DNA from: a virus
Length of the DNA stretch: 63,229 nt
Virus record (IMG/VR): IMGVR_UViG_3300046004_000392
Coordinates: 1 to 63,229 of that record
Direction: 5' to 3' (one strand)
Shown here piece after piece: positions 35,360 through 62,725 of the stretch (positions within the stretch are counted from its first letter, which is position 1; every line of letters starts with the position of its first letter). Under the pieces are notes generated by a model. The model had not been told where the DNA came from. It was given only the letters and a program-made list of their open reading frames with translations, and searched no databases. The position numbers were made by a program, and so were the translations under genes.

Positions 35360-38300
35360 ATGCCGATAGTAAACGTCCCTGGAGTTGGTCAAGTTAACTT
35401 TCCCGACTCGATGAGTCATGAGGATATAGTTAAGGCAATACAGACTAATATTCTTCCTAGTGCAGCTAAGCCACAAGCACCTGCCGCAGCTCCAGCAGAA
35501 CCATCCAGCTTTATGCGTCGTGTCGGTGACGTAGGACTTAGCACAGCTCAAGGTGTTGTTGGGTTAGGTGAAGCAGCGTTAGGTATCGCTGATATTCCTA
35601 CTATGGGTCACGCAGGTCGTGGTGCTGAGATTGCCGAGAAAGCTATATTCGGCGGTACAACAAAAGATGCGCAAGCATACCTAGAGTCACTAAAATCTCC
35701 AGAAGCTAAACTAGCACAAGAAAAAGTAGCCGCAGCTAAAGGGTTCTTACCTACAGCTGGTGCACTACTTGAAAACCCATCCGCACTAGTTGGTACAGTA
35801 GCAGAGTCACTTCCATCTATGGTTGGTGGCGCTGGCTTAGCCCGTGCTGGTATGAAAGCACTTCCTACATTAGCTGAAAAGGCGGGAGAAAAAGCTGCGT
35901 TATATGCTGGTGCAGCTGGCGAAGGTGCAATCAGTGCCGGGTCTACAGCCGAATCTATACGTCAGCAAGATAAATCAGGTTTAATTTCTCCCGAACAAGC
36001 GGCTATATCAGGTGTTAGTGGCGTACTTACAGGTGGGCTAGGCATATTCGGCGGCAAGATGGCTGCTAGATTTGGTGTGTCTGATGTTGATACGCTAATG
36101 GCGGGTGGTGTTAAAGACCTAGCTAAGAACGCGGAGAAACAATCTATACTTAAAGCCGCAGCTAAAGGTGCGTTGGCAGAGTCTGTATTTGAGGAACTCC
36201 CTCAATCAATGCAAGAACAGATATCAATGAACGTTGCTACAGGCAAACCGTGGGACGAGAACGTTGCTGAAGCTGGTGCTACTGGTGCAATGGCTGCACT
36301 CGTTATGGGTGGTGGGGGTGCAGGCGCATCTCAAGCACTTACTAATGCCAATATAAAAGCACAAGCGAAAAAAGACCAGCTAGCTGCTACTCAAGAAGAA
36401 TCAAAAGCAGGTAAGAGCCTGTTTGAAGAACAAGACGATGAAGATGCAGGAGAAAGTCCCTTTGCCCCATCAGCTGTAGACTTAGCTGCAATGGAAGAAG
36501 AAAAAAAGGCTAAAGAAAAATATCTATCTAAGACACTAACTGCACAAGAACGTGATGCTAAACGCGAAGCGGAACATCCGTTTGGCGACACAATGCTTGA
36601 TGAGAAGACTGGCTTCCCGTTGTTTTCACGTCGTGAGGATGAATCACACAAAAAAGACTATGTTGCATTAGTTAATACAATAGGCAAAGAAGCATATTCT
36701 CCAGATAGAGATAGTCCTTTTTTCGGGGACACTAACTATGCTGGTACCGTAATGGACGTATTTCACAGCAGAGAATTTAATGATGCTGACACAACTAACC
36801 CTGAAGTAGCTGAAAGACTATACAATAATTTAGCCTTAAGTTTAGACGCTAACGGATACTCAAAGTATTTACAGCAAATAGACCCATACACACCCCCCAC
36901 ACGTCAAGAAGCGCCATCAATGCCAGCTGCCGAAGATGTGCAGCAAGAATTTAAACTAGCTAGTCAAAAAGTTAACGACGCAATCGCTAACAAAGACGAA
37001 GCCGCGTACGAGAAGGCGCTAGAAGAACTTAAGATTGCTAGAGAGAAAGCACAGACAATCCAACCCGGGTTTCAAGCACCGCTATTCGCTCAGCAACAAG
37101 GTCTCGACTTCAATCAAGAAATGCCTGTGGCACCAGAAGGTCAAGCTGCAGTAAAACCACCTACTATTGGCCAGCAAGGTTTAGACTTTACGCAAGAACA
37201 ACAAGGTGAGTACACCCCACCAAAAGTAGAAGCGCCTAAGTTTGGCTTTACTACTGATACATCAGCTGCCCCACTACAACAATTCTTATCTCGGTTTAAA
37301 CCGCGTTCTACTAGCGAAGCCGAAAGAGAAAAGCAGCAAGCAGCGTTGTTTGGTAAGCAAGAAGCAGATGGCAGTCGTATGGGTGGGCTATTAGACCAGA
37401 TTGCTGAGTTATACGTAGACGATTCTTCTGCGGAACAATTAGCTTACTCTAAGGGAGTGATTGATTCATTCTTTGATAAGTACGCGGCTACAGACCGCCC
37501 TAGTAAGCAAGCTGCATTAGATAACATAAACAACTTATCTGCAGAAGACCAAACACGAGTACTTAACGACTACACTCGTCTACCAGACTTAACCACTTAC
37601 GAAGGCGTTAAGAAATTATCCGACGCATTCCAAGACCACGTTGCCGAAGCTGAGTTAGCTGGGTTAGGTATCACCAAATCTTCCAGTGCGTACAAGCAAG
37701 CGGATGAAGCGGTACGTAGCTTACGCAAAAAACCTAGGTCCCAATACGACGAACAAGAACAAGCTGCTTACAATTACTTTAGTAACTATGGTTTAGATTT
37801 AGCATTACGTTCAGCTGCATTTGATATATCTGTTAACACTCCACGCAACCAACTATACCGTGGTCAAGGCAAGGATTCGGCCTTGCAATTCCAAGAGTGG
37901 TTAAATAACAACGCTCTTGAAAGTGCCAAAAAGTTTGACAAGTATCTTCGTGCCTATAAGAAGCAATACGAAGGATATAAAGCATTCCAAGAAATACAGA
38001 AAACTAAAGAGTCCGAAGCCGAAACCGTCGCGGACTACGTAGCAGCGGAAGATACGAAAAATGGTAGGGCACTACTATCCCCAGCGGATAAAGAACGTAG
38101 TCAGATGATGCTAGCGCCGTTGCACCCAGTCGCTAAAATGCATATTTTAAACAATAACTTGAACGGCGTACTTACTACTATTGCATCTACTTCCCCATCT
38201 CCATATCAACGTAGGCTAGCAGCACGATTAGCTGAACTAAACTTATACACCGCTATCGGTATTGATAATATTGAAACTATACTTGAGGACTATACCCCAC

Positions 38301-41300
38301 AATCGAGAAACTTATTAAGTATGTTATTAGACGCGGTGTACCCTAACGAAAATGTATATGACATAATGCGGGGATGGGATAATGCTAAGTCTAATTTAGG
38401 ACGCTTTCATTACGCAAATGTGATAGTTAAGAACCTTGAAGGGGTAGAAATACCTGGAGCTGCTAAGGATATAATCAAAGATTTAAAGCAACAGATAGCA
38501 AATGCCCTTGATTCCGAAGACAGTAGAGGGGCGTACTATCCAAACTCTAATTCGATAATGTTAAGGTCAGACCCTAAGCGATACGGGGTTACTCCGTACA
38601 CTATATTACATGAGGTTATGCATGCGGCTACCGCTCGTATAGTAAATAATCCGACACTCTACTCGAGTACGCAGCAAGCTGCAGTGTATGAGCTTAAGCA
38701 ACTATATGCATTGGCTAAAAAAGAAGCAAAAGGAACTAACTATTACGGTGTAACTAACGTGCATGAGTTTATTGCAGAGGCATTTACTAATAGTAAGTTT
38801 CAAGATTTTCTTAAAGGCATTAAGTACAAGCAAAGCAACATGTCCTTATGGGATAAATTTGTACAGTACTGCCTAGAAATGTTCGGGTATGACAACGTGC
38901 TATCAAGCACTATGGCTAACGTAAATACATTATTTGGTGCACCAGATGAGGGTAAGTCCTTTGTTATTGCTGCCCCTTTGTATGCTAAGCGCAACAAGGG
39001 TATGTTTGAAAGCAACAGTGCTGAGCGCAGTAAGCCGACAGAAATACTTAACGACCTAATTAGAAACAACACTAAGTGGGAAGACATCAAGGACAAGATG
39101 TCACAAGCCTTGTCTACTATGAATACGCAAACACGTAAGCATTGGCTAGGTGCATTCACACTACGTCAAATGGACGAACTAATCGGCACTGTATACGGAA
39201 GAAACCCAGAGACAGGCGAGATGGAGTTCATGTCTAAGATACCGCAGATATCTAAGTTCTTGCGTGCGGTTGAGGATATGACTAGCGAGCGAGCAAAAGT
39301 AATTCACGAGTCTACTCAAATTGCCAAAGAGTTGATGAACCTACAACGTGAAAGTAAAGCGACCGTAGACAAGCTAACTCAGATTGTACAAACGAGTACT
39401 GTGCAAGAAGTAGACCCGACTAAGCCCGCACCTCAACCCAAAGACCCAGCTAATCCTACTAAGGAAGAGCAAGATAGACTTGACTACCACAAGTTAGTTA
39501 AGGAAGAATGGGACAAGCTAGGTAACATGAAAGGCGGTAAGACTGCGCAAGACATGTACGTTAAGATGCGTGAGTTCTTCAAGACACGCTTAGCAGAGTT
39601 TAAGAAGATTGCGTATGAGCGTGAATTCGACCGACTACTAGCGGACGCTGCGTTAGATGCATCGGCTACAGACTACGCGGATCAAGTAGACGCACTTCAA
39701 GCTACGGCTAGGTCTAACATAGACAACAAGTTCTCTGAAAGTATTGAGCCGTACTTCCCACTAAAACGTTTCGGCGAGTTCTGGGTACGTTACGGTACAG
39801 GAAAAAACCGCAAGTACATGCAGTTCGAAGATGCAGCTGCGAAGAACAAGTTCCTTGCTAAAGCTCGTGCAGACTACGCAAATACACTACGTAGAAAAGG
39901 GTACACCACAGAGCAGATTGTCAAGGAAGTAAAAAATCCAGCGATGATTAATCACGGGAACCAACAAGCAGACCTAGTTAATGACTTGTTCTCTGACCGT
40001 GCTGTGTATGAGGAAGTTAAAGACATCGTGTCTACTATTGGTGGCACGACCGTAACTGACCCAGAAGAACTACGTAAATTAGTTTTGGAACAGTTAGGCG
40101 AACTATACATAACTACCCTACCACTACAAAGTGTGCAACGTATGTTCTTGCATCGTCAAAACGTAGCGGGTGCAAGTAATGACTTGATTCGTAGCTTCCA
40201 GCACGCTGGCTTCCATATGGCGTACCAACACGCTAGGTTTAAACACGCACCTAGAATGGACGACCAACTAGCCGCTGCTAAGAGTATGGTAGATTCCCTA
40301 GATGATGCTGACGAAAAAGCAGTACTTAATGACTACTTAGCTGAGATAAATAGGAAGTATAGAGACAATGTAATCAAACCACCACCATCCAGCTGGTTAG
40401 CTAATAAACTATCTAACATCAACTTCTTGTGGTACTTAACTGCACCAGCTTCAGCTATTGTAAACATGATGGCGGTTCCGTCTATTGCACTTCCTGTACT
40501 AGGCGGTAAGTTCGGTACTAAGAAATCTTGGAGCGCCATTACTAAGTACATGACTATGTTGTCTGGGTCTGGTTGGAAGGATTTTTCAGAAGCCGAATAT
40601 AAACGCATATTATCTGAGCAAGGTAAAGAAGCGGCAGATAAGTATAAAAATGATGCACCGTTTGACGCCCCATCTATTGGTCGCTCTTCTAAACTAACTC
40701 CATTACAGAAACGAGCATACGAAGCGTTCTCAGAAAACTTACTTGAGCAATCACTAGCCCACGATGCAGCTGCATTATCAGAAAACCCTAGCTTAGACTA
40801 CACAGGTCGCTGGGGTAAGATTATGCAGATTGCTACGTTCCCATTCCATAAAGCAGAACGGTTCAACCGCGAGATTACAGCAATGGCTGCGTTTGATTTA
40901 GCTTATGAAAAGAACGGCGGTAACTTTGAGGCTGCAGTTAAAGAAGCTTCTGACTTAACGTGGAAGACTATGTTTGACTACGCTACGTATAACAAGCCTC
41001 GTTATATGCAAGGCAACTTAGCTAAAGTGTTACTTGCATTCAAACAATACGCACAGCACATGACTTACCTATTAATGCGTACAGCATACGAAGCAACTGC
41101 AGATGTATCTAAAGCAGAGTTTGACGAGCTTGCAAGTTTATATGGCGAAGAGGCAGCAACCAAATACGCCCAAGACGCAAACGAACTTCGCGCTCAAGCA
41201 CGTAAAACATTTGCGTTGATGATGGGTATGTCATTTGTATTTGCCGGTGCAGCTGGCCTACCAATTTGGTGGATGTACTCTGGTATGGCAAAAGCGTTCA

Positions 41301-42091
41301 ATGCTGTATTCGGAAACGATGAGTTACCGTTCGATGTAGACAACGACTTCAAGAACATGATGAACAATACATTCGGTGGGTTCGTTGGCGATTCAATTTC
41401 ACGTGGAGTAATCCCACAACTTACTGGTGTATCACTAGCCGATCGTATGAGCACTAACTTGCCTGATATGTGGTTCCGTGATACTAGAAAAAATAACGAC
41501 GAAGTTGAAATGGTAAACCAAACAATCCTTAACTTACTAGGCCCAACTGTTGGCTTACTAGTAAATGGCGCTGAAGCAGTTAAACGATACAACGACGGAA
41601 ATACAGAACGTGCGTTTGAAGCGATAGCACCGGGTGCATTTAAGAATTTATTAGCTGGTTCTCGTCTTGCTAGCGAAGGTGCATTGACTATGAAGGGTGA
41701 TACCTTGATAGAAGACATCTCTGGACCAGAAGCATTCAAGCAAATGCTAGGTTTTACTCCAGAAAGGCTCGCTCAAAGGCAAGCTGCTAACATAGAAGCC
41801 AAATCTAGCGAGCAAGCGGTGATGCAGCGCCGTCAGGACCTACTAAACTTCTTAGCGATGGCTATAGAGCGCGAAGACGAAGATGGTGAGGCAAAGGTAT
41901 TGGCAAAGATCGAAGATTTCAATGACGCCAACGATTGGGCTGCAATTAAGGCTTCTACGATTCGTTCATCAATCAAAAAACGTGCAAAAGCTAGGGCAAT
42001 GTCAGACGAATTAGGCGGGTTAAACGTCAATAAAAACTTCCGAGACATTGCAGAAGAGCAAACTGGATACGCGGCCGACGAAGAAGAGTGA
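35360..42091 (+). CDS. Giant internal/ejection protein with HEXXH motif, 2243 aa
   Basis: The largest gene, at the end of the late operon like the T7 gp16 position. The N-terminus (IVNVPGVGQVNFPDSMSHED) is a small domain common in large phage polyvalent proteins. Residues 60-340 hold Gly/Ala-rich, membrane-prone segments. A zincin-like motif HEVMH lies at residues 1084-1088 (HEVMHAATARIV), followed by VHEFIAEAF about 45 residues on, which could give the third ligand. The C-terminal third has hydrophobic segments (FLWYLTAPASAIVNMMAVPS, and one near residue 1955). Likely injected into the cell with DNA. Confidence 0.8.
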   Translation: MPIVNVPGVGQVNFPDSMSHEDIVKAIQTNILPSAAKPQAPAAAPAEPSSFMRRVGDVGLSTAQGVVGLGEAALGIADIPTMGHAGRGAEIAEKAIFGGTTKDAQAYLESLKSPEAKLAQEKVAAAKGFLPTAGALLENPSALVGTVAESLPSMVGGAGLARAGMKALPTLAEKAGEKAALYAGAAGEGAISAGSTAESIRQQDKSGLISPEQAAISGVSGVLTGGLGIFGGKMAARFGVSDVDTLMAGGVKDLAKNAEKQSILKAAAKGALAESVFEELPQSMQEQISMNVATGKPWDENVAEAGATGAMAALVMGGGGAGASQALTNANIKAQAKKDQLAATQEESKAGKSLFEEQDDEDAGESPFAPSAVDLAAMEEEKKAKEKYLSKTLTAQERDAKREAEHPFGDTMLDEKTGFPLFSRREDESHKKDYVALVNTIGKEAYSPDRDSPFFGDTNYAGTVMDVFHSREFNDADTTNPEVAERLYNNLALSLDANGYSKYLQQIDPYTPPTRQEAPSMPAAEDVQQEFKLASQKVNDAIANKDEAAYEKALEELKIAREKAQTIQPGFQAPLFAQQQGLDFNQEMPVAPEGQAAVKPPTIGQQGLDFTQEQQGEYTPPKVEAPKFGFTTDTSAAPLQQFLSRFKPRSTSEAEREKQQAALFGKQEADGSRMGGLLDQIAELYVDDSSAEQLAYSKGVIDSFFDKYAATDRPSKQAALDNINNLSAEDQTRVLNDYTRLPDLTTYEGVKKLSDAFQDHVAEAELAGLGITKSSSAYKQADEAVRSLRKKPRSQYDEQEQAAYNYFSNYGLDLALRSAAFDISVNTPRNQLYRGQGKDSALQFQEWLNNNALESAKKFDKYLRAYKKQYEGYKAFQEIQKTKESEAETVADYVAAEDTKNGRALLSPADKERSQMMLAPLHPVAKMHILNNNLNGVLTTIASTSPSPYQRRLAARLAELNLYTAIGIDNIETILEDYTPQSRNLLSMLLDAVYPNENVYDIMRGWDNAKSNLGRFHYANVIVKNLEGVEIPGAAKDIIKDLKQQIANALDSEDSRGAYYPNSNSIMLRSDPKRYGVTPYTILHEVMHAATARIVNNPTLYSSTQQAAVYELKQLYALAKKEAKGTNYYGVTNVHEFIAEAFTNSKFQDFLKGIKYKQSNMSLWDKFVQYCLEMFGYDNVLSSTMANVNTLFGAPDEGKSFVIAAPLYAKRNKGMFESNSAERSKPTEILNDLIRNNTKWEDIKDKMSQALSTMNTQTRKHWLGAFTLRQMDELIGTVYGRNPETGEMEFMSKIPQISKFLRAVEDMTSERAKVIHESTQIAKELMNLQRESKATVDKLTQIVQTSTVQEVDPTKPAPQPKDPANPTKEEQDRLDYHKLVKEEWDKLGNMKGGKTAQDMYVKMREFFKTRLAEFKKIAYEREFDRLLADAALDASATDYADQVDALQATARSNIDNKFSESIEPYFPLKRFGEFWVRYGTGKNRKYMQFEDAAAKNKFLAKARADYANTLRRKGYTTEQIVKEVKNPAMINHGNQQADLVNDLFSDRAVYEEVKDIVSTIGGTTVTDPEELRKLVLEQLGELYITTLPLQSVQRMFLHRQNVAGASNDLIRSFQHAGFHMAYQHARFKHAPRMDDQLAAAKSMVDSLDDADEKAVLNDYLAEINRKYRDNVIKPPPSSWLANKLSNINFLWYLTAPASAIVNMMAVPSIALPVLGGKFGTKKSWSAITKYMTMLSGSGWKDFSEAEYKRILSEQGKEAADKYKNDAPFDAPSIGRSSKLTPLQKRAYEAFSENLLEQSLAHDAAALSENPSLDYTGRWGKIMQIATFPFHKAERFNREITAMAAFDLAYEKNGGNFEAAVKEASDLTWKTMFDYATYNKPRYMQGNLAKVLLAFKQYAQHMTYLLMRTAYEATADVSKAEFDELASLYGEEAATKYAQDANELRAQARKTFALMMGMSFVFAGAAGLPIWWMYSGMAKAFNAVFGNDELPFDVDNDFKNMMNNTFGGFVGDSISRGVIPQLTGVSLADRMSTNLPDMWFRDTRKNNDEVEMVNQTILNLLGPTVGLLVNGAEAVKRYNDGNTERAFEAIAPGAFKNLLAGSRLASEGALTMKGDTLIEDISGPEAFKQMLGFTPERLAQRQAANIEAKSSEQAVMQRRQDLLNFLAMAIEREDEDGEAKVLAKIEDFNDANDWAAIKASTIRSSIKKRAKARAMSDELGGLNVNKNFRDIAEEQTGYAADEEE

Positions 42092-54766: not shown

Positions 54767-54915
54767 AGTGTTACTACCTCGTGTCGTAATAAATATTTGT
54801 CTAGGTATTCGTATAGTTCTGCTTCTAAAACTCCAACCAACAGATTATAAACGTGCTCGTCGTTTACGCTTTCGATTAGTTTGCATAATCGCTCAAGTCT
54901 TTCTATGTCAAACAT
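54757..54915 (-). CDS. Small acidic helical protein, 52 aa
   Basis: Starts MFDIERLERLCKLIESVND and has two helices separated by a short turn (EHVYNLLVGVLEAELYEYL). GGAG precedes the ATG. It overlaps both neighbours by 8-10 bases. The function is unknown. Confidence 0.6.
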   Translation of the reverse strand: MFDIERLERLCKLIESVNDEHVYNLLVGVLEAELYEYLDKYLLRHEVVTLCD

Positions 54916-55243
54916 TTTGGTTCTCCTCGAGGCTATCGTGGGGCTCTGACCAGTTCCCTGCCACGTCCATCAATTTGGCGATTAAATCTACGTTTGTCTC
55001 GTTGATAACGTAGGTTAAGCCACCTGCTTTATTTATTTTGTGTAGTTCGCGCAGTTGTAATTCGGTTGGTTTGTTTGTGCCAGCTTTACATTCGATGCCA
55101 ACAAACTTACCGCGTAGACAGCAGACAATGTCGGGCACACCACTGCGACCGAAGCCACCAGTGGCAGGAAAGAAATAGTACGCGTCGTTAGCCTTGAGTA
55201 GTTTGACTACTGATGCCTTGACTTTTGACTCGGGTGTTGCCAT
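54908..55243 (-). CDS. VRR-NUC domain nuclease
   Basis: A 111-aa stand-alone VRR-NUC nuclease of the PD-(D/E)XK superfamily. It has SKVKASVVKLLKANDAYYFF, then GRSGVPDIVCCLRGKFVGIECKAG (catalytic Asp, Glu-x-Lys) and PTELQLRELHKI. Such phage enzymes are thought to act on branched DNA. The start at 55243 has GGAG upstream and the sigma-70 promoter 35 bp further; a longer frame reaches 55342 without a site. Confidence 0.88.
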   Translation of the reverse strand: MATPESKVKASVVKLLKANDAYYFFPATGGFGRSGVPDIVCCLRGKFVGIECKAGTNKPTELQLRELHKINKAGGLTYVINETNVDLIAKLMDVAGNWSEPHDSLEENQNV

Positions 55244-55277
55244 TGATGTACTCCATAAACATAACGAATGTTTACTA

Positions 55278-55305
55278 AGTATACTTGACGGAATGGGGGT
55301 GTCAA
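55278..55305 (-). promoter_or_regulatory. Leftward sigma-70 promoter for the VRR-NUC cluster
   Basis: Read leftward: TTGACA (55305-55300), 16 bases, TATACT (55283-55278). It drives the genes from 55243 down. The gene-free stretch 55244-55533 also holds dyad copy 3 and a CCTTAACC-TGCATA-GGTTAGG hairpin near 55472-55492. Confidence 0.8.
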
Positions 55306-55380
55306 TAGGCTTACAAGATTTATTTTTAGGTACGTCTTCCACCCAAATAGGGTGTTACGTTTGTGATAGGCATAAAAAAA

Positions 55381-55410
55381 GGACAACATAACAGTTAAGT
55401 TACATTGTCC
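55381..55410. promoter_or_regulatory. Dispersed 30-bp dyad, copy 3
   Basis: GGACAACATAAC, six bases, GTTACATTGTCC. It lies about 75 bp upstream of the VRR-NUC promoter and beyond the stop of the 55534-56412 gene. Confidence 0.8.
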
Positions 55411-55533: not shown

Positions 55534-56412
55534 TTATCCTACTATGTACATTATGTTGTCTTCGAACTTTACCCCTATATCTTGTATAGGGTCGTTCTCC
55601 TCAGCAATTTTAAGTACAGCTATCTGTTCTTGCATACGAATTGGCATCTCTTCATAGTTTCGGTATCGCATAAGCGGTATGTTGTTTTCCTCATACGTGT
55701 GCCTAGCGTCATACATAAACGATACTGCTCGTATAGTGTTGTCAGCTAGTACCTTTACCACGTACCCACTACGTTCTTTACCTGTGGCAGTATTGTACTT
55801 GCTTACCGCCTTCAGCGACTTACCTGCTAGGTATCTATAATACATATGCATTTGGTTCTCGTCTACTTTACACGTTGCAGGCATAGGCAGTACCTTGCCT
55901 TGAATATGTGACTCAACTATCCACTCATGTATATCGTTACCATAGTAACTTGACACTTGAGACAACGAACTGCGCCACCGGTACTCGTGGTTATCATACT
56001 CATCACGTACCCTAGTAATTAACCTAGCACAAATCTGCCCTACGCTAGGTGGTGCAAATGCTTTAACGACGTGCTTCAATGCCGTTGTGGTATTAGTAGT
56101 TACAACCGTATTAGGAGACCCACGTTCTTTCTGTATGTGTTCAGACCTTATAACGTATGCGTCCGGATAGGTACCATCAGATTGCCTACGGCCTGCTTCA
56201 TGTTGATACGAAATCTCACCTACTCGGTCAGCGTCTTGTGTTACCTCAAACCCCGTAGCCCACTTAGTGATTGAACCTGTTTCATCACTAACAGCGTTGC
56301 GAAACTTGGTTGCGTGGAACTCAAACAATGGGCGCTTCATCTGTATCATTGTTACCAACTCTTTAAGCTGCGGAACTATTTCCGTAGCCTGTCCTAAATT
56401 TATTGCAGCCAT
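55534..56412 (-). CDS. Hypothetical early protein, 292 aa
   Basis: Not recognised. Mixed alpha/beta with a front helix (ATEIVPQLKELVTMIQMKR), a central segment (FAPPSVGQICARLITRVRDEY) and a C-terminal part containing YDARHTYEENNIPLMRYRNY. No catalytic motif is visible. It is the last gene of the MoxR/VWA unit and could be a further component; it starts 20 bases after the DUF3150-like gene. Confidence 0.65.
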   Translation of the reverse strand: MAAINLGQATEIVPQLKELVTMIQMKRPLFEFHATKFRNAVSDETGSITKWATGFEVTQDADRVGEISYQHEAGRRQSDGTYPDAYVIRSEHIQKERGSPNTVVTTNTTTALKHVVKAFAPPSVGQICARLITRVRDEYDNHEYRWRSSLSQVSSYYGNDIHEWIVESHIQGKVLPMPATCKVDENQMHMYYRYLAGKSLKAVSKYNTATGKERSGYVVKVLADNTIRAVSFMYDARHTYEENNIPLMRYRNYEEMPIRMQEQIAVLKIAEENDPIQDIGVKFEDNIMYIVG

Positions 56413-56432
56413 ACAACTCTCCTAAAATAATG

Positions 56433-57323
56433 TTACCAATTAAACTTCGATAAGATATCGTCTACTTGTGTCTTGACTTCTTGACGTGTGTGTTCGCTAT
56501 CACGTAGCGCTTCTGCGCTAAGTCCATTAACCACAGTAGCTAACTGTTTACGTGCATCTTCAATCTTCGGGTCTTGCGTGATGTTCAAATGCTTTAACTC
56601 CAGGCATAACTCTTGTGCATTGGTTACTAACGTATCACGAAAGATTTTCTTCTTACTCTCAGCACCGCTGTCATCATCTGCTAACCTATCACTCATGCGA
56701 CGTAAGCAATCCTCTAGGCGCCACGTTACATCAGCCATCGCGTTATGTACTCGGTCATTGACACTCGCATTGAACTGTTCTTTCAACTCCACGATAGCAT
56801 CATTACCCACATCAACTCGGAAGTCACCTGCCACAGGCACAGGTAAGAACGAGTACTTGAACTCGAACTGTTTAGCGACTTGTGCCTTATCGGGATAGTC
56901 TGATTGCACAAACAAATCACCTAGGGCGTGCGACGCTTGGACAATAAGGTCATCAAACTTTTCTAAAAAGTCGTCTATCATATCCTTACGCATAGTTTCG
57001 TAATTAGATAGAGCTTGCTTGTACTCAAAGAACTTAGCCGATGGTAGCAGACGTTGTCCTTTGTCAGACCACGGAAGGGTCTGTGATATATTCCACGCAC
57101 GAATACGTGAGTCGAACTTGTTGATATCGTGTAGTACTTTAGTACCTGCAAACAAATTCTTTTGGTACTTACCTGCGTTGGTTGTCGTAGAATTTACTAC
57201 ATCTACCATCTCGGTCGTGGGTCGGTCAATCTTAGTACCAGTCCACGAACGGATTGATAGGTCTACTAACATAGAACTGCTTGATATACTGACGATATCT
57301 ACTGCTTCATTTTGGTTACTCAT
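56433..57323 (-). CDS. DUF3150-like protein of the MoxR/VWA module
   Basis: A 296-aa, mostly helical protein with an N-terminal beta segment (SSMLVDLSIRSWTGTKID), a central helical body (FFEYKQALSNYETMRKDMIDDFLEKFD) and coiled coil to the end. The order and the RAWN/TLPWSD-like stretch fit DUF3150, a family usually encoded with a MoxR-type ATPase and a VWA protein, as here. Its role is unknown, possibly a substrate adaptor. Dyad copy 4 lies 20 bp upstream of the start. Confidence 0.65.
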   Translation of the reverse strand: MSNQNEAVDIVSISSSSMLVDLSIRSWTGTKIDRPTTEMVDVVNSTTTNAGKYQKNLFAGTKVLHDINKFDSRIRAWNISQTLPWSDKGQRLLPSAKFFEYKQALSNYETMRKDMIDDFLEKFDDLIVQASHALGDLFVQSDYPDKAQVAKQFEFKYSFLPVPVAGDFRVDVGNDAIVELKEQFNASVNDRVHNAMADVTWRLEDCLRRMSDRLADDDSGAESKKKIFRDTLVTNAQELCLELKHLNITQDPKIEDARKQLATVVNGLSAEALRDSEHTRQEVKTQVDDILSKFNW

Positions 57324-57342
57324 TTTATTTCTCCTTATGGTT

Positions 57343-57372
57343 GGACAACATAACTACTCTGTTACATTGTCT
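57343..57372. promoter_or_regulatory. Dispersed 30-bp dyad, copy 4
   Basis: GGACAACATAAC, six bases, GTTACATTGTCT. It is 20 bp upstream of the DUF3150-like start and overlaps the end of the gene before it. Confidence 0.8.
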
Positions 57373-57542
57373 AAGATAGTTTGATTACGGACTATGTACT
57401 CATGCGCTAAGTATTGTATTGCTTGCGTATAGGAAGCGTTAATACCTAGTGAGGCCCGCATATGTTGAATTACTACATCAAGTACTTTTACTGTACCTGC
57501 GTTTACTGATACACCTACACGACCATCGCTTGTTCTTGCCAT
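57354..57542 (-). CDS. Small protein with ribbon-helix-helix-like form, 62 aa
   Basis: Basic short start (MARTSDGRVGVSVNAGTVKVL), then helices (VVIQHMRASLGINAS, TQAIQYLAHEY). The strand-helix-helix layout suggests a ribbon-helix-helix DNA-binding protein, unproven. Its 3' end overlaps dyad copy 4. It may be a regulator of these genes. Confidence 0.55.
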   Translation of the reverse strand: MARTSDGRVGVSVNAGTVKVLDVVIQHMRASLGINASYTQAIQYLAHEYIVRNQTILDNVTE

Positions 57543-57543
57543 C

Positions 57544-57717
57544 TTAATTCTCCTCTAATACATCTTCGATAAAATAATAGCTTTCGGCAGGCTCTAGGTC
57601 TGCGTTAGCTTCGTACGTCTGTACTGCAAGACGTTGTGCTTCTTCGGGCGAGTCTGCTTCTACCTGCATAGGGTATATCTCTGACTGCACGATTGTTACT
57701 AACCATTTCTGTTTCAT
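57544..57717 (-). CDS. Small acidic protein, 57 aa
   Basis: Starts MKQKWLVTIVQSEIYPMQVEA and continues with EEAQRLAVQTYEANADLEP, a two-strand, one-helix layout common in small phage early proteins. GGAG precedes the ATG. The function is unknown. Confidence 0.65.
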   Translation of the reverse strand: MKQKWLVTIVQSEIYPMQVEADSPEEAQRLAVQTYEANADLEPAESYYFIEDVLEEN

Positions 57718-57727
57718 GACTTACTCC

Positions 57728-58111
57728 TTAGTATATATCCCAACATAACGAACTTACTGGGTACAGCATTGACGTAGCTTCGCCATCACCACCATACCTA
57801 GTGTCTATATCACCCGACTCCTCACCTATACGCACGAAACACCAACTCACGCAGTTATACTTCTCTGCAAACTCCTCAGCTAAATCGAGTAGCTTGTGAT
57901 GTGCTATTACGTCGGAGTAACTGTCGTACCACTTGACGTCCTCGGCTTCAAATCTAACGTGTAGTTTGTTATCGTTAAACTCTAAACTTTGTGGCTCGTC
58001 CTCTCGACAGTGGTCGTAATCGGGGTCTAGCTTGTACTGCACCTTAAATTGGTCGTACACTTGCTGTTCTGTGAATACAATTAAGTACCCCACTTGACTT
58101 CTATATCCCAT
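57728..58111 (-). CDS. Hypothetical early protein, 127 aa
   Basis: Starts MGYRSQVGYLIVFTEQQVY. Acidic alpha/beta protein with KWYDSYSDVIAHHKLLDLAEE and a VSWCFVRIGEES strand. Similar MGYRS-x-V starts occur in conserved phage early proteins of unknown role. The start at 58111 has GGAG six bases upstream; the frame extends 8 codons further to 58135, overlapping the VWA stop. Confidence 0.65.
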   Translation of the reverse strand: MGYRSQVGYLIVFTEQQVYDQFKVQYKLDPDYDHCREDEPQSLEFNDNKLHVRFEAEDVKWYDSYSDVIAHHKLLDLAEEFAEKYNCVSWCFVRIGEESGDIDTRYGGDGEATSMLYPVSSLCWDIY

Positions 58112-58134
58112 ATCTAACTCCTTAAATTTACCCA

Positions 58135-59337
58135 TTATGTTTTAAGATGTAACACTTTGCCTGTATCGCTTGTGTATGATGGGTTATCTACCACACACCA
58201 TATAACTGGATTAGCTACGTCAGACCAGTCGCCCTCACCGCCGTAACAACCATCAGTTAGAACGATAGTGATTTCCGGATTCAAGCTGTGCTCTTTCATG
58301 TACGCAGGTATACAGCTTGGGTCAGTACCTCCACCACCTCTTGGTTTCGTCGTATCCAATAGCGAGTCATATTCGGTTTCGGTATAGAACTCATGCCCTG
58401 CCACACGTGTATCCCAATACAGTAAGTCCAGTCCTTCGGGCATCACTTCGTCACAGATAGATTTAATCTCTGTCATAAACGTATCGTGAATTACTCCACC
58501 GATGGAACCCGACGTATCGTCAGCCACACAGATTCGGCCGACCTTGTGGTTAATGTTTTGTGGTAGGTAAATATCAGCACCTAGGTGTCGCTTACTAAAC
58601 TTGCGCCACGAACTATCGCCTGTACCTTTACACGTAACCTTAACTAAGTCGCGTAGCAATTCTGTCCACGGCACCTGTGGCTCAACTAGGCTTTGCATAC
58701 CACGTGGTACGTCGCCACCCATCTTACCTGCCAACTGCTTACCTTGATGTAGTGCTTGCGTAACGCGTGAACCTAATTCCTGTTTCTCCTCAGGAGTTAA
58801 TTCTTCTGCCCCTTCAAAGTCGTGGTCATCAAATTGGTCATCGCCCAGTTCGTCTTTTGCGCGTGGGTTCTGACCAGTTCCATATTCTTTGACAAGCAAA
58901 TCAAATACTTGCTGTGCGTCCATACCACGATACTTCTCGTCGAGTAAGCCCATACGTGACCCATCGTCATTCTGAGGAAATGCTATCTCTGTTTCGTTTG
59001 GGTCTTGGTCTACTAGCTGTAAGTTAATCACGTAGTCACACGCACAGTTCGCAAGCATAGGGTCTTTGTCGTAAAGATGTTTCCACGTAGTAGTGTGTCG
59101 CCACGCAATGTGCGATAGCTCATGTAATACTACAAACAACATTTGCTTATCGTTCATCTTATTGACAAACTCTCTACCGTAGATTACGTCCCTACCATTA
59201 GTACATGCTGTTGGTATGTCGTCGCTTACCGATACCTTACCTATCATAGTAAGCCCCGAGTAGAAGCGGAATAGTTTGGACTGCATGATTGATACATGCG
59301 CCCTCTCTACCTTTTGTTCTGCTGTTAATGTTGCCAT
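58135..59337 (-). CDS. VWA-domain putative metallopeptidase (DUF2201-type)
   Basis: A 400-aa two-part protein. The N-terminal half has HELSH at residues 72-76 (HELSHIAWRHTTTW), an HEXXH zinc motif followed by a Cys/Asp stretch. The C-terminal half is a von Willebrand A-like domain with MIDAS residues Asp274-x-Ser276-x-Ser278 (DDTSGSIGG), Thr338 (GGGGTDPS) and Asp362 (IVLTDGCYG). This pairing is the DUF2201 form, which is usually encoded beside a MoxR-type ATPase, as here (59383). Dyad copy 5 lies between the two genes. Confidence 0.85.
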   Translation of the reverse strand: MATLTAEQKVERAHVSIMQSKLFRFYSGLTMIGKVSVSDDIPTACTNGRDVIYGREFVNKMNDKQMLFVVLHELSHIAWRHTTTWKHLYDKDPMLANCACDYVINLQLVDQDPNETEIAFPQNDDGSRMGLLDEKYRGMDAQQVFDLLVKEYGTGQNPRAKDELGDDQFDDHDFEGAEELTPEEKQELGSRVTQALHQGKQLAGKMGGDVPRGMQSLVEPQVPWTELLRDLVKVTCKGTGDSSWRKFSKRHLGADIYLPQNINHKVGRICVADDTSGSIGGVIHDTFMTEIKSICDEVMPEGLDLLYWDTRVAGHEFYTETEYDSLLDTTKPRGGGGTDPSCIPAYMKEHSLNPEITIVLTDGCYGGEGDWSDVANPVIWCVVDNPSYTSDTGKVLHLKT

Positions 59338-59353
59338 ATTGTTTCTCCTAAAT

Positions 59354-59383
59354 GGACAGTATAACTAGACTGTTATGTTGTCC
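59354..59383. promoter_or_regulatory. Dispersed 30-bp dyad, copy 5
   Basis: GGACAGTATAAC, six bases, GTTATGTTGTCC: here the right half is the canonical one. It is 17 bp upstream of the VWA start and its last base is the last base of the MoxR-type gene. Confidence 0.8.
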
Positions 59384-60453
59384 TAAAATAAATACTGATT
59401 AGCACGAGCCCAATCCACGAACGCTTGTGAACTAAACAAGATACGTTTCTTTTCCTCGTTCTTACTTGCGGTCAGACAGAATACAGACTGCAACTCTTTC
59501 GGAGTGCGTTTCATATAGTCGAACCACTTCCCTATCGTATCCCTCTGTACACGTTGAACTGCACCGAACGCTAAGATACACAAGGCGGCCGGATTGTTAG
59601 GTACGATTGCCTCACTTGGTTTATCAATGATACTGTCCCACGTAGGTAAGCTGTCGGCTATATCAATGAACGCATACAAGTCACGCGCACCACTAGCACC
59701 GATAGTACCTTCCAATGCACACAGTAACGCTTGCGTGTTGTAATCATTCTTGTTCTTAACGATGTTACTTGCCAACTCTAGTGAGCGTGGCGATACGAAG
59801 CTACGTTGTGAGAACTTAGGGTTGTAGATGTACTGATTGTCCGATTGTGATGGGTCACGATACGAACCTAGTACTTGAGGGAACTCACGAACCCACGCTA
59901 GTACCACAGGTGCAATCTTGTCCATACCCCAACTCAACCATTCCTCACTCGTAGGCTTGCGTACATTGAGTACACTCAGACGGTTTCGGCTATGACTCGC
60001 CATCACGTCGCCCACTGCGTCAGTCGTCAAGTTACCTGCTGTGATAACCACGCTATCCTTGTGCAGGGTAAGACCACTTATCCTTCTGGGGTTTGTCAGC
60101 AAAGGGTGTAACATATTCTTAACTGCCGACGCACCTTTGGTAAACTCGTCAAGCATGATGCACAACGGCTCGTCAGTGTGAAAGCCCCAATGTTCGTTCG
60201 GGTACAACTTGGTCGTGCCTGTTTCTCTGTCGGGCATAGGTATACCTAAGTCGCCCAACTCTGTGTTGGGTACGTCAATATAGATAGCACGCATACCTAG
60301 TCGGTCAGCGATTGATTGGTGCATTGCTGTTTTACCAACTCCGGGCTCGCCCACTAAGTGGAACGTGTTGCTTGCGCCTACGGAAACGATTAAGTCTGAC
60401 GCTTCACGTAGGCTAACCTGTGTGTCAAGGTTGATATTCATTTGGTTGCTCAT
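59383..60453 (-). CDS. MoxR-type AAA+ ATPase
   Basis: A 356-aa AAA+ ATPase of the MoxR/cobaltochelatase-like group. Walker A is GEPGVGKT (35-42), Walker B IMLDEF (Asp102, Glu103), sensor 1 TAGN (Asn141) and the arginine-finger region HSRNR (154-158). The C-terminal lid follows after residue about 240. Such ATPases act as chaperones that remodel or load metal cofactors into target proteins together with VWA partners. It has a complete set of ATPase motifs, so it is probably active. It is followed by the VWA gene. Confidence 0.88.
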   Translation of the reverse strand: MSNQMNINLDTQVSLREASDLIVSVGASNTFHLVGEPGVGKTAMHQSIADRLGMRAIYIDVPNTELGDLGIPMPDRETGTTKLYPNEHWGFHTDEPLCIMLDEFTKGASAVKNMLHPLLTNPRRISGLTLHKDSVVITAGNLTTDAVGDVMASHSRNRLSVLNVRKPTSEEWLSWGMDKIAPVVLAWVREFPQVLGSYRDPSQSDNQYIYNPKFSQRSFVSPRSLELASNIVKNKNDYNTQALLCALEGTIGASGARDLYAFIDIADSLPTWDSIIDKPSEAIVPNNPAALCILAFGAVQRVQRDTIGKWFDYMKRTPKELQSVFCLTASKNEEKKRILFSSQAFVDWARANQYLF

Positions 60454-60464
60454 TTTTATTATCC

Positions 60465-60848
60465 TTAGTCTTGTTTTGTAAATGTGTTTAAGTACGCAAG
60501 TGTACCCAGTACTGCAGGTACGTCAGCAGGTGTGCACTCATAGTCTATGTCTGATTTGTTGATTAGTACTTTGCCCTCATAGATTGTAATGAGTAGTCCG
60601 TACATAGTGGCTAGGTCAGCCATTATCTTGCTTGCTTCAGCGATACCATCAGATACGATTTGCACGTTAGATGGGCGACCTTGTTTCTTAGCTTTCATCT
60701 GTTTAGCTTTAAGTGCTTTGCGTTTCATGTCATGCACGATGGTCACGTGACAATCAACTGCGTCAGCGATTTGCTGTGCCGTTAGTTTCGGGTGTGTTAC
60801 TAACATGTCACGTACCATTTGAGTTTTGTTAATGCCTGCTACTTTCAT
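60465..60848 (-). CDS. Helix-turn-helix protein with AT-hook-like segment
   Basis: A 127-aa protein. The N-terminal MVRDMLVTHPKLTAQQIADAV, then HVTIVHDMKRKALKAKQ forms an HTH. It is followed by KKQGRPSN, an AT-hook-like GRP motif, and a C-terminal helical domain for dimerisation. The gene sits directly upstream of the MoxR-type gene, with dyad copy 6 29 bp before its start. It is a candidate regulator of the module and of the dyads. Confidence 0.75.
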   Translation of the reverse strand: MKVAGINKTQMVRDMLVTHPKLTAQQIADAVDCHVTIVHDMKRKALKAKQMKAKKQGRPSNVQIVSDGIAEASKIMADLATMYGLLITIYEGKVLINKSDIDYECTPADVPAVLGTLAYLNTFTKQD

Positions 60849-60871
60849 TTTGTTTCTCCTTAGTTTTGAAT

Positions 60872-62092
60872 TTAAAGGACAACATAACGACGTGTTATGA
60901 TGTCTTCCTGCTCTACAAGGTACTTGTTACACAACACATACTTCTCGTTCAGTGTTGATGGGAGTACACCTTGCGATACTTCCACTTTCTTAAAGATTAA
61001 GTCTGCATACACGTACTTGATTACATCTATGATGTAGTTCTCTATCGTGGTGCCACTCACTCGCCACTCCAGTTCGGGTAGGTTTACCTTGCCAAACATC
61101 GTGTCTACGGCTATCTCTGCGTCATGATGTACTTGCTTCGCATAGCTTGAACCATTAGTTACCACGCGCAACATCATCTTGCGGACAGTTTCGGCATTGT
61201 CCGAGAATAGATTAGATATGATGGACAAGAAGTCCTCGGTGTTGTGCCCGTCTGTATAGTTAGGTTCTCCGTACTTCGCATTAGTAAACTTACTTGAGTC
61301 ACCTGTGCGTTTCATGTTCTCCGCTAGGTGTGACAGATTGGATAGGTTAGGTGCGCCTACCTTGTTCTCAATTAGGTTTCGTAGTGTGTAGCTACCATAG
61401 AAATACCCAAAGTAGGTTGCGTGCGCAGGGTCGCCTGCTTCTTTCGCATGCATTTTCTCTCTGTGTTCGTTCACCTGTTTCACGTAGTCGTCTATCACGT
61501 TCGGAAAGAAATACGCTATCTCGGGCAAAGTGTACGTAGATGACATACTTGTCATGACAAATGTCGCGTCTAAGAATGGTTTAATATTCTTGCGTATAGC
61601 GTTCATCACCTTGCGGTCAGCCTTATACTCGTAAAGCGTAGGTGCGTTGTCTAACATAGGCTCGGCAGTCTGCCAGTCCTCGCTCACTTGTAACCACAAG
61701 CCACCATCGGGTATGACAAACTCACGACCTTTTACTGTCGTGTATATCATGCGTCTACGTTCCAACCGAACCTTACCGAATTTGCGTGGTAACACTGCTT
61801 CCATAAAGTTAGCAGTAGATGGGCTTAACCAACCACCACGATTTAGTTTGATGGTGTTGTCGGGATAGATAGTTACGCAAGGTGTTTCGTACAGCACAGC
61901 CGACACGCTATCCACAAGTGGGTCGTGTTCAATCTTGCATTGCGTGTATGCCCTGTTAGTGCCGAGTGGTTTAAGTTCGGGTGTTCTACCACGTATCGGT
62001 TTCACTCTGTTGAAGTGCGCTAGTGCCATTTCGTGTGTTTCAAAGTGCGACGACCTAACACCTGCGCTAGATATAAATGTGTTCCAACTCAT
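60872..62092 (-). CDS. Hypothetical early protein, 406 aa
   Basis: Not recognised. Mixed alpha/beta: front part with SWNTFISSAGVRSSHFETHEM, middle part (LERRRMIYTTVKGREFVIPDGGLW) and a helical end. No catalytic motif is visible. The start at 62092 has GGAG upstream; the frame runs nine codons further to 62119, into dyad copy 7. It leads the HTH-MoxR-VWA-DUF3150 gene series, so it may belong to the same system. Confidence 0.7.
   Translation of the reverse strand: MSWNTFISSAGVRSSHFETHEMALAHFNRVKPIRGRTPELKPLGTNRAYTQCKIEHDPLVDSVSAVLYETPCVTIYPDNTIKLNRGGWLSPSTANFMEAVLPRKFGKVRLERRRMIYTTVKGREFVIPDGGLWLQVSEDWQTAEPMLDNAPTLYEYKADRKVMNAIRKNIKPFLDATFVMTSMSSTYTLPEIAYFFPNVIDDYVKQVNEHREKMHAKEAGDPAHATYFGYFYGSYTLRNLIENKVGAPNLSNLSHLAENMKRTGDSSKFTNAKYGEPNYTDGHNTEDFLSIISNLFSDNAETVRKMMLRVVTNGSSYAKQVHHDAEIAVDTMFGKVNLPELEWRVSGTTIENYIIDVIKYVYADLIFKKVEVSQGVLPSTLNEKYVLCNKYLVEQEDIITRRYVVL
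60877..60905. promoter_or_regulatory. Dispersed dyad, copy 6 (five-base spacer)
   Basis: GGACAACATAAC, five bases, GTTATGATGTCT. It lies 29 bp upstream of the HTH gene and overlaps the last codons of the 60872-62092 gene, which may explain its sequence and spacer difference. Confidence 0.7.
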
Positions 62093-62110: not shown

Positions 62111-62140
62111 GGACAACATAACGTGCTTGTTACATTGTCC
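62111..62140. promoter_or_regulatory. Dispersed 30-bp dyad, copy 7
   Basis: GGACAACATAAC, six bases, GTTACATTGTCC. It is 19 bp upstream of the chosen start of the 406-aa gene. Its position favours that start over 62119, which would put the dyad inside the coding frame. Confidence 0.8.
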
Positions 62141-62369: not shown

Positions 62370-62516
62370 CTATTGTAAAAACAAATCTAATTGCCGTTGT
62401 TCGCTAGCCAATACGTGTACATCACGACCATCAAACAGGCACTCTAAGTACGCTTTAATCCACCGTATGTTTGCGCGACCTTGCATACGCTTTTGGTGCC
62501 ACTGATACTTGTTCAT
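62370..62516 (-). CDS. Small basic protein, 48 aa
   Basis: Starts MNKYQWHQKRMQGRANIRW, basic and Trp-containing, then a helix (IKAYLECLFDGRDV) and an LDLFLQ end. The ATG overlaps the preceding zinc-ribbon stop (ATGA). The LDLFLQ end resembles a short protein-interaction motif; unproven. Confidence 0.6.
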   Translation of the reverse strand: MNKYQWHQKRMQGRANIRWIKAYLECLFDGRDVHVLASEQRQLDLFLQ

Positions 62517-62725
62517 GTTCTCACCCCTTTCTGATTAGTTTCTTTGAGAGTACAAAGTGCACTCTCGCTTGTGACGAATTGGTAGTTACCCTTACCATAC
62601 TCTTGTACCACACACCAACTAGCACGCTCTATTACTGCAAGTTCCTCACCGCAGTATAAGCAGACTTTGTAACCTAGTTTGACACGACGACTGTCAATGT
62701 CATGACCACAACGAATACAACTCAT
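62513..62725 (-). CDS. Zinc-ribbon early protein, 70 aa
   Basis: First gene of the leftward arm. CIRCGHDI then CLYCGEE give a two-knuckle zinc ribbon (Cys3, Cys6 and Cys22, Cys25). The rest is a short helix and strand. It has GGAGAGC before the ATG, with dyad copy 8 between it and a strong promoter. The function is unknown; possibly host takeover or DNA binding. Confidence 0.75.
   Translation of the reverse strand: MSCIRCGHDIDSRRVKLGYKVCLYCGEELAVIERASWCVVQEYGKGNYQFVTSESALCTLKETNQKGVRT

Follow-up and report, generated by a model that had tools for sequence, protein, structure and literature searches.

An AAA+ ATPase, a metallopeptidase-like VWA protein and a DUF3150-like protein in the early arm of an environmental phage: a possible remodelling machine for a host complex

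Introduction

What could a phage do with a MoxR-like AAA+ ATPase, a VWA protein carrying an HExxH motif and a DUF3150-like protein encoded close together? The question is raised by IMG/VR record IMGVR_UViG_3300046004_000392, a 63.2-kb environmental phage genome (hereafter the window, meaning the whole stretch of 63,229 nucleotides that was analysed). An earlier note on this DNA had described the three genes as a chaperone-like module, interleaved with dyads and accompanied by a helix-turn-helix (HTH) regulator and two proteins of no assigned family. All the genes it named are open frames on the minus strand at the positions it gave. The three at issue are as follows (aa, amino acids; MIDAS, metal-ion-dependent adhesion site).

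59383–60453, minus strand: MoxR-like AAA+ ATPase, 356 aa, relative of N4 gp24 (AAA_5, phrog_1297, motifs)
58135–59337, minus strand: HExxH metallopeptidase-like and VWA/MIDAS protein, 400 aa, relative of N4 gp25 (DUF2201_N, DUF2201, phrog_1314)
56433–57323, minus strand: DUF3150-like third partner, 296 aa (weak PF11348; hhalign to bacterial DUF3150)

Our tentative answer, to which we give somewhat less than an even chance, is that the module encodes an ATP-driven remodelling machine, similar to midasin and CbbQO, that acts on a complex of the host and is neither a builder of virions nor a helper of a single enzyme.

Results

The ATPase and the VWA protein belong to the N4 gp24/gp25 families

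The ATPase matches phrog_1297 across its whole length (E 4.9e-46) and PF07728 AAA_5 over the Pfam cut-off (6.4e-6). We found an AAA_5-type domain with Walker A (GEPGVGKT), Walker B (LDE), sensor 1 (N141) and sensor 2. All the ATPase motifs announced earlier are thus present, and an alignment of 14 homologues, N4 gp24 among them, shows no change in Walker A and B, sensor 1, R158 or R223. The designation as MoxR-type stands in part: the protein is MoxR-like, but its identity as a canonical MoxR is not supported, as the MoxR-specific model bpMoxR stayed under its cut-off (0.032), general AAA models alone passed theirs, and the best solved-structure matches of its profile are midasin AAA domains (4e-24). 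Its profile also matches bacterial CobS-like ATPases distantly (E 4.5e-8), and CbbQ_C is absent from its Pfam matches.

The VWA protein combines an HExxH domain (PF13203 DUF2201_N, putative metallopeptidase, 4e-27) with a MIDAS-bearing VWA domain (PF09967 DUF2201, VWA-like, 1.8e-11), the composition of a DUF2201-type protein, and it matches phrog_1314 at 2.3e-82. The HExxH and MIDAS residues reported before are invariant in 14 homologues (H72, E73 and H76 with H81; D274, S276, S278, T338 and D362), and so are N97, D101 and N105. Its AlphaFold model (predicted local distance difference test, pLDDT, 79.5) has a VWA fold at residues 264–400, which resembles many VWA domains with Z about 12; the matches of the model include the midasin MIDAS domain. 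The protein may be an active peptidase. Both phrog_1314 and many RefSeq phage records label it 'HNH endonuclease'. We find no support for this identity: metallopeptidase and VWA domains were found and HNH was not (no HNH model among its Pfam matches up to E 1); the label is apparently a propagated misannotation.

The two genes are neighbours in the window as in phages N4, LIT1 and A5. Homology to the N4 proteins extends over most of the length of both (tblastn; the PHROG families match at full length), and the Walker, MIDAS and HExxH residues are likewise invariant in gp24 and gp25. The three schitovirus pairs are 22–27% identical to the window pair, while the virion and early regions differ, and profile searches of 13-kb stretches of these genomes found no DUF3150 beside the pair. 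N4 gp24/gp25 are among the 14 core genes of 25 N4-like phages (Schitoviridae), with no function given beyond a vWFA domain (PMC4193335; PMC2784036). The suggestion that the pair is special to the window phage is therefore given up: it is the gp24/gp25 core pair of N4-like phages. On their essentiality, the main text of the CRISPRi-ART report, searched with a few N4 phrases, yielded passages on rII only.

A tblastn search of 50,697 phage records found 752 with the VWA protein and 394 with the ATPase; among the matches listed for both, the two genes adjoin or lie within 6 kb. Remote homology thus did not place the two proteins in unrelated families. This breadth bears on the idea that the module is cargo for defence or superinfection exclusion, aimed at competing phages and not at the host. 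MoxR-vWA proteins are indeed described as parts of bacterial conflict systems (PMC7159879). Yet the pair is core in N4-like phages and not sporadic, no toxin or sensor domain was seen near the module, and PADLOC gave no match, on which ground we rejected membership of a defence system. We consider such cargo highly improbable.

A DUF3150-like partner links the pair to a bacterial gene cluster

The third protein scores 19.6 bits against PF11348 (6.3e-4), below the gathering cut-off of 24.9; its best relative reaches 2.4e-5. Homology to DUF3150 was found by hhalign against the bacterial family (E 1.5e-6, probability 90, 144 columns), and the genes around the two are alike in kind. DUF3150 was detected in 4 of the 50,697 phage records and is not mentioned by name in the literature searched. 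Three of these four records have the same length, 65,014 bases, and identical match scores (PP438419.1, OQ594354.1 and OL906435.1, cyanobacterial phages with differently named hosts). Pra-JY27, one of the three, is of this length, as are MinM2 and Pag-Yong1, and the three records are perhaps one phage or a common contaminant.

The co-occurrence of the three gene types in bacteria, claimed in the earlier note, was examined in 398 genomes from the phylum of one metagenome-assembled genome. Eight of them carry DUF3150 above cut-off. Seven loci were inspected, two of them near-identical; five have a Walker-A ATPase within about 6 kb, and six have, within the same distance, a VWA protein with HExxH that is mostly CobT-like, so the association holds in this small sample. 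Pfam confirmed four of the ATPases and five of the VWA proteins. The three partners of these bacterial clusters (CobS-like AAA, DUF3150 and CobT-like VWA) correspond to those of the phage module, and each phage protein resembles its counterpart distantly when their profiles are compared. The systems are not the same: the bacterial VWA partner is CobT-like, with 545–731 aa, and not DUF2201, and the bacterial ATPase carries CbbQ_C, to which the phage ATPase has no match.

The three genes travel together in related contigs

We found the ATPase in 13 related environmental contigs. The VWA gene is present in 12 and the DUF3150-like gene in 10, that is, in every contig of the 13 that extends far enough, and the order ATPase–VWA–DUF3150-like is the same wherever the contig is long enough. 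The genes thus co-occur in other phages, with their order kept among relatives. The DUF3150-like gene is followed by a 292-aa gene in nine of ten contigs, by the VRR-NUC-like gene in all ten, and then by PolA where the contig reaches. These counts are not all independent, since contigs L008 and L016 look near-identical. Four contigs binned in genomes have similar gene company; in two of the four, the DUF3150 gene precedes the ATPase.

Sister genomes keep the virion genes and lack the module

The two ends of the window have a direct repeat in common, 100 bases long or more; the window is therefore very likely a complete phage genome, and its early arm accordingly continues across the joined ends. 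A DNA-level search of annotated phages with the window gave zero matches. Its rightward arm holds terminase, portal, head and further virion-type genes along with the gene for a 2243-aa protein. The leftward arm encodes a DUF927/primase-helicase-like protein, an SNF2-like helicase, an exonuclease, PolA and a VRR-NUC-like nuclease, and the module lies upstream of these replication-type genes, in the early arm.

The terminase suggests kinship with HTVC023P-type pelagiphages and with freshwater phages related to them. Three complete sisters, DSL-LC04, HTVC027P and 023Pt_psg01, are 54–59% identical to the window phage in terminase, 39–40% in portal and 63–65% in major head protein, and have further virion genes in common with it. 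In all three, the ATPase and VWA genes are absent by profile and tblastn, and the DUF3150-like gene by tblastn. Planktothrix phage Pra-JY27, a cultured relative, has all three genes, in the order ATPase–DUF3150–VWA. Its major head protein is 75% identical to that of the window phage; its terminase, at 46%, is more distant than those of the sisters. In the complete genomes tested, the three genes are present all or none.

These observations bear first on a role in virion assembly, in which the motor and the peptidase-VWA protein would fold, process or load structural proteins, perhaps the 2243-aa protein. Such a role, with processing of structural proteins, was proposed for the pair of a MoxR AAA+ protein and a metallopeptidase-fused vWA protein in group 2.2 jumbo phages (PMC7824862), which are much larger than the window phage but have a like protein pair. 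The archaeal virus ATV offers a further precedent, and the size of the largest proteins points the same way: module-bearing contigs encode giant proteins of 2268–2993 aa and Pra-JY27 one of 2803 aa, whereas the large proteins looked at in the module-less sisters have 1068–1386 aa. Stretches of the giant proteins of both the window and Pra-JY27 match the profile of the N4-type virion RNA polymerase. On the other hand, the sisters build homologous capsid, portal and terminase without the module, so it is not needed for the virion core, and in the window it sits in the early arm, apart from the virion arm. A strict tie of the module to a giant virion protein that is ejected would suit the window lineage, Pra-JY27 and N4. 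In phage V5, however, which carries the pair, inspection of 98 kb out of 138 kb showed no protein above 2000 aa; we rejected the strict form and keep the link only as a lead. The sister comparison thus disfavours for the window lineage the role proposed for the jumbo-phage pair, and we regard virion assembly as unlikely.

The 2243-aa protein (35360–42091, rightward arm) has DarB-like and LPD39 family matches. Its residues 107–577 match an N-terminal part of the N4-type virion RNA polymerase profile, with 3.4e-14 when the whole protein is taken. A simple pattern search for a canonical RNA polymerase found no DxDGD and no complete set of single-subunit motifs in it.

The same genomes speak to a second alternative, that the module activates, or loads metal into, a phage enzyme of replication or nucleotide metabolism, much as CobS/CobT load cobalt. 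Its setting would suit this role, since the module adjoins the VRR-NUC-like nuclease, PolA and exonuclease genes in the window and in LIT1 and A5 the pair has helicase and polymerase genes close by, and so would the distant profile likeness to CobS-like and CobT-like proteins. But Pra-JY27 retains the three genes with unrelated replication genes (it has no match to the DNA polymerase, primase, helicase or exonuclease of the window phage), so the module is not tied to one replisome, and we found no single phage enzyme that tracks it. An enzyme activator is accordingly improbable in our judgement.

Shared palindromic sites mark the early region

A palindrome scan located eight dyads in the window.

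62111–62140: before the 415-aa gene
60877–60905: before the HTH-ATPase genes
59354–59383: between the ATPase stop codon and the VWA start
57343–57372: before the DUF3150-like gene
55381–55410: before the VRR-NUC-like nuclease gene
starting at 141, 1571 and 62744: further dyads

The dyads are 28–31 bases long. Their outer arms, GGACA/TGTCC, are constant; the inner 4-mer depends on the lineage but is palindromic in any one site (TAAC, TGAC, TAGG, CTAG, ACCG and GTAC in the window and contigs L005–L017). Shuffling predicts at most 0.05 per contig. Their interleaving with the module genes, noted before, is real, and many relatives likewise have dyads ahead of the 415-aa, HTH/ATPase, VWA, DUF3150-like and VRR-NUC-like starts. 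With the ends joined, all eight window dyads fall into the stretch from 55.4 kb to 1.6 kb, with none in the other ~54 kb, home of the virion arm and the replication genes. This confinement to the early region places the module in an early regulon. No such dyads occur in the sisters without the module, in Pra-JY27 or in the stretches of schitovirus DNA that were examined. We discarded the reading of the dyads as RNA hairpins, because pairing on the coding strand is not consistently kept; putative sites for a dimeric DNA-binding regulator fit better. Several relatives have an additional dyad inside the VWA gene, about 500–530 nucleotides from its start. A small zinc-ribbon-like protein (62513–62725), with a dyad ahead of its gene, is kept in most related contigs and is a candidate early regulator.

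Accompanying genes are less constant

54908–55342, leftward arm: VRR-NUC-like nuclease gene, which comes after the module
55534–56412, minus strand: 292-aa protein adjoining the DUF3150-like gene in relatives
57354–57542, minus strand: 62-aa protein before the DUF3150-like gene (several relatives)
57544–57717, minus strand: 57-aa protein (nearest relative only)
57728–58135, minus strand: 135-aa protein between the VWA and DUF3150-like genes (relatives in L005 and L025)
60465–60848, minus strand: HTH-like 127-aa protein (phrog_14131, E 0.004; weak matches)
60872–62092, minus strand: 415-aa protein upstream of the ATPase (N-terminal part aligns across relatives)

Three genes, for the 135-, 57- and 62-aa proteins, separate the VWA gene from the DUF3150-like gene, which corrects the earlier note. 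The HTH regulator had been counted as a member of the module; with weak matches and presence in the two nearest contigs only, it is dropped, and it and two of the small genes occur in near relatives only or patchily. The 292-aa protein keeps its position but evolves fast (22–24% identity in all contigs except the nearest). Neither it nor the 415-aa protein has a match in Pfam, PHROG, NCBIfam or PADLOC. For the 415-aa gene, the start at 62092 is still preferred over the one at 62119, the first ATG, since just downstream of a dyad the coding strand has AAGGAGAGTAATATGAGTTGG. Across relatives, good alignment of its product is confined to the N-terminal part, which has a GGW-T-T motif; the C-terminal part varies greatly in both length and sequence, as might suit a target-binding part.

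Discussion

How might such a module work? CbbQO and midasin/Rea1 pair an AAA+ ring with a MIDAS adaptor, as the module appears to do, a likeness of design and not of tested family membership. To our knowledge, neither has been described with an HExxH peptidase or a DUF3150 partner. In CbbQO, target binding falls to the MIDAS adaptor and the force comes from the AAA+ ring, and rubisco activation is lost in MIDAS mutants (PMC4660213). By this analogy, the chemistry of the module is likely one of remodelling. The AAA+ protein would be the ring motor, and the VWA protein would grip the target through its MIDAS metal site, while its HExxH zinc-peptidase-like site might either clip the target or have a structural role. 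The DUF3150-like protein could serve as a helical adaptor between the ATPase and the VWA protein, or towards the target. The three proteins would form a complex, and the machine, made from the early arm, would disassemble, inactivate or re-tool a complex of the host cell.

That the target is of the host is suggested by the sister comparison together with the early placement, which shift the balance in this direction without proof. We therefore think it more likely that the module acts on a host complex than that it serves a phage enzyme. Several points weigh against the host-directed machine. The whole early arm of the sisters differs, so that absence of the module there may be bystander loss. 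N4 gp24/gp25 are middle genes, not the earliest (PMC4193335). In ATV, a MoxR ATPase interacts with a VWA protein (p618/p892), and a role in tail development was assigned (PMC4124505); ATV differs in being an archaeal virus with p618 as a major virion component and a pair without the peptidase domain (PMC7824862). Finally, the model of the DUF3150-like protein, mostly long helices, is of middling quality (pLDDT 73; predicted template modelling score 0.43) and has no Foldseek match in the PDB below E 0.48. A more specific version, in which a midasin-like machine with a built-in zinc peptidase and a DUF3150 adaptor dismantles a particular host complex early and the same activity lies behind N4 gp24/gp25, seems to us rather doubtful.

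The protein families, and the ATPase/VWA pair as a phage core pair, are known already; new are the occurrence of a DUF3150 partner in phages, its parallel in bacteria and the contrast in presence and absence of the module. The 'HNH endonuclease' label of the VWA protein, carried by many records, finds no support in the domains we detected. The window lineage is a natural experiment, with homologous virion cores that do and do not come with the module, and the third partner, DUF3150, ties the N4-type pair to a bacterial gene cluster. For N4 gp24/gp25, relatives of which are encoded in hundreds of phage records, a question of annotation may thus become a directly testable one of host-complex remodelling.

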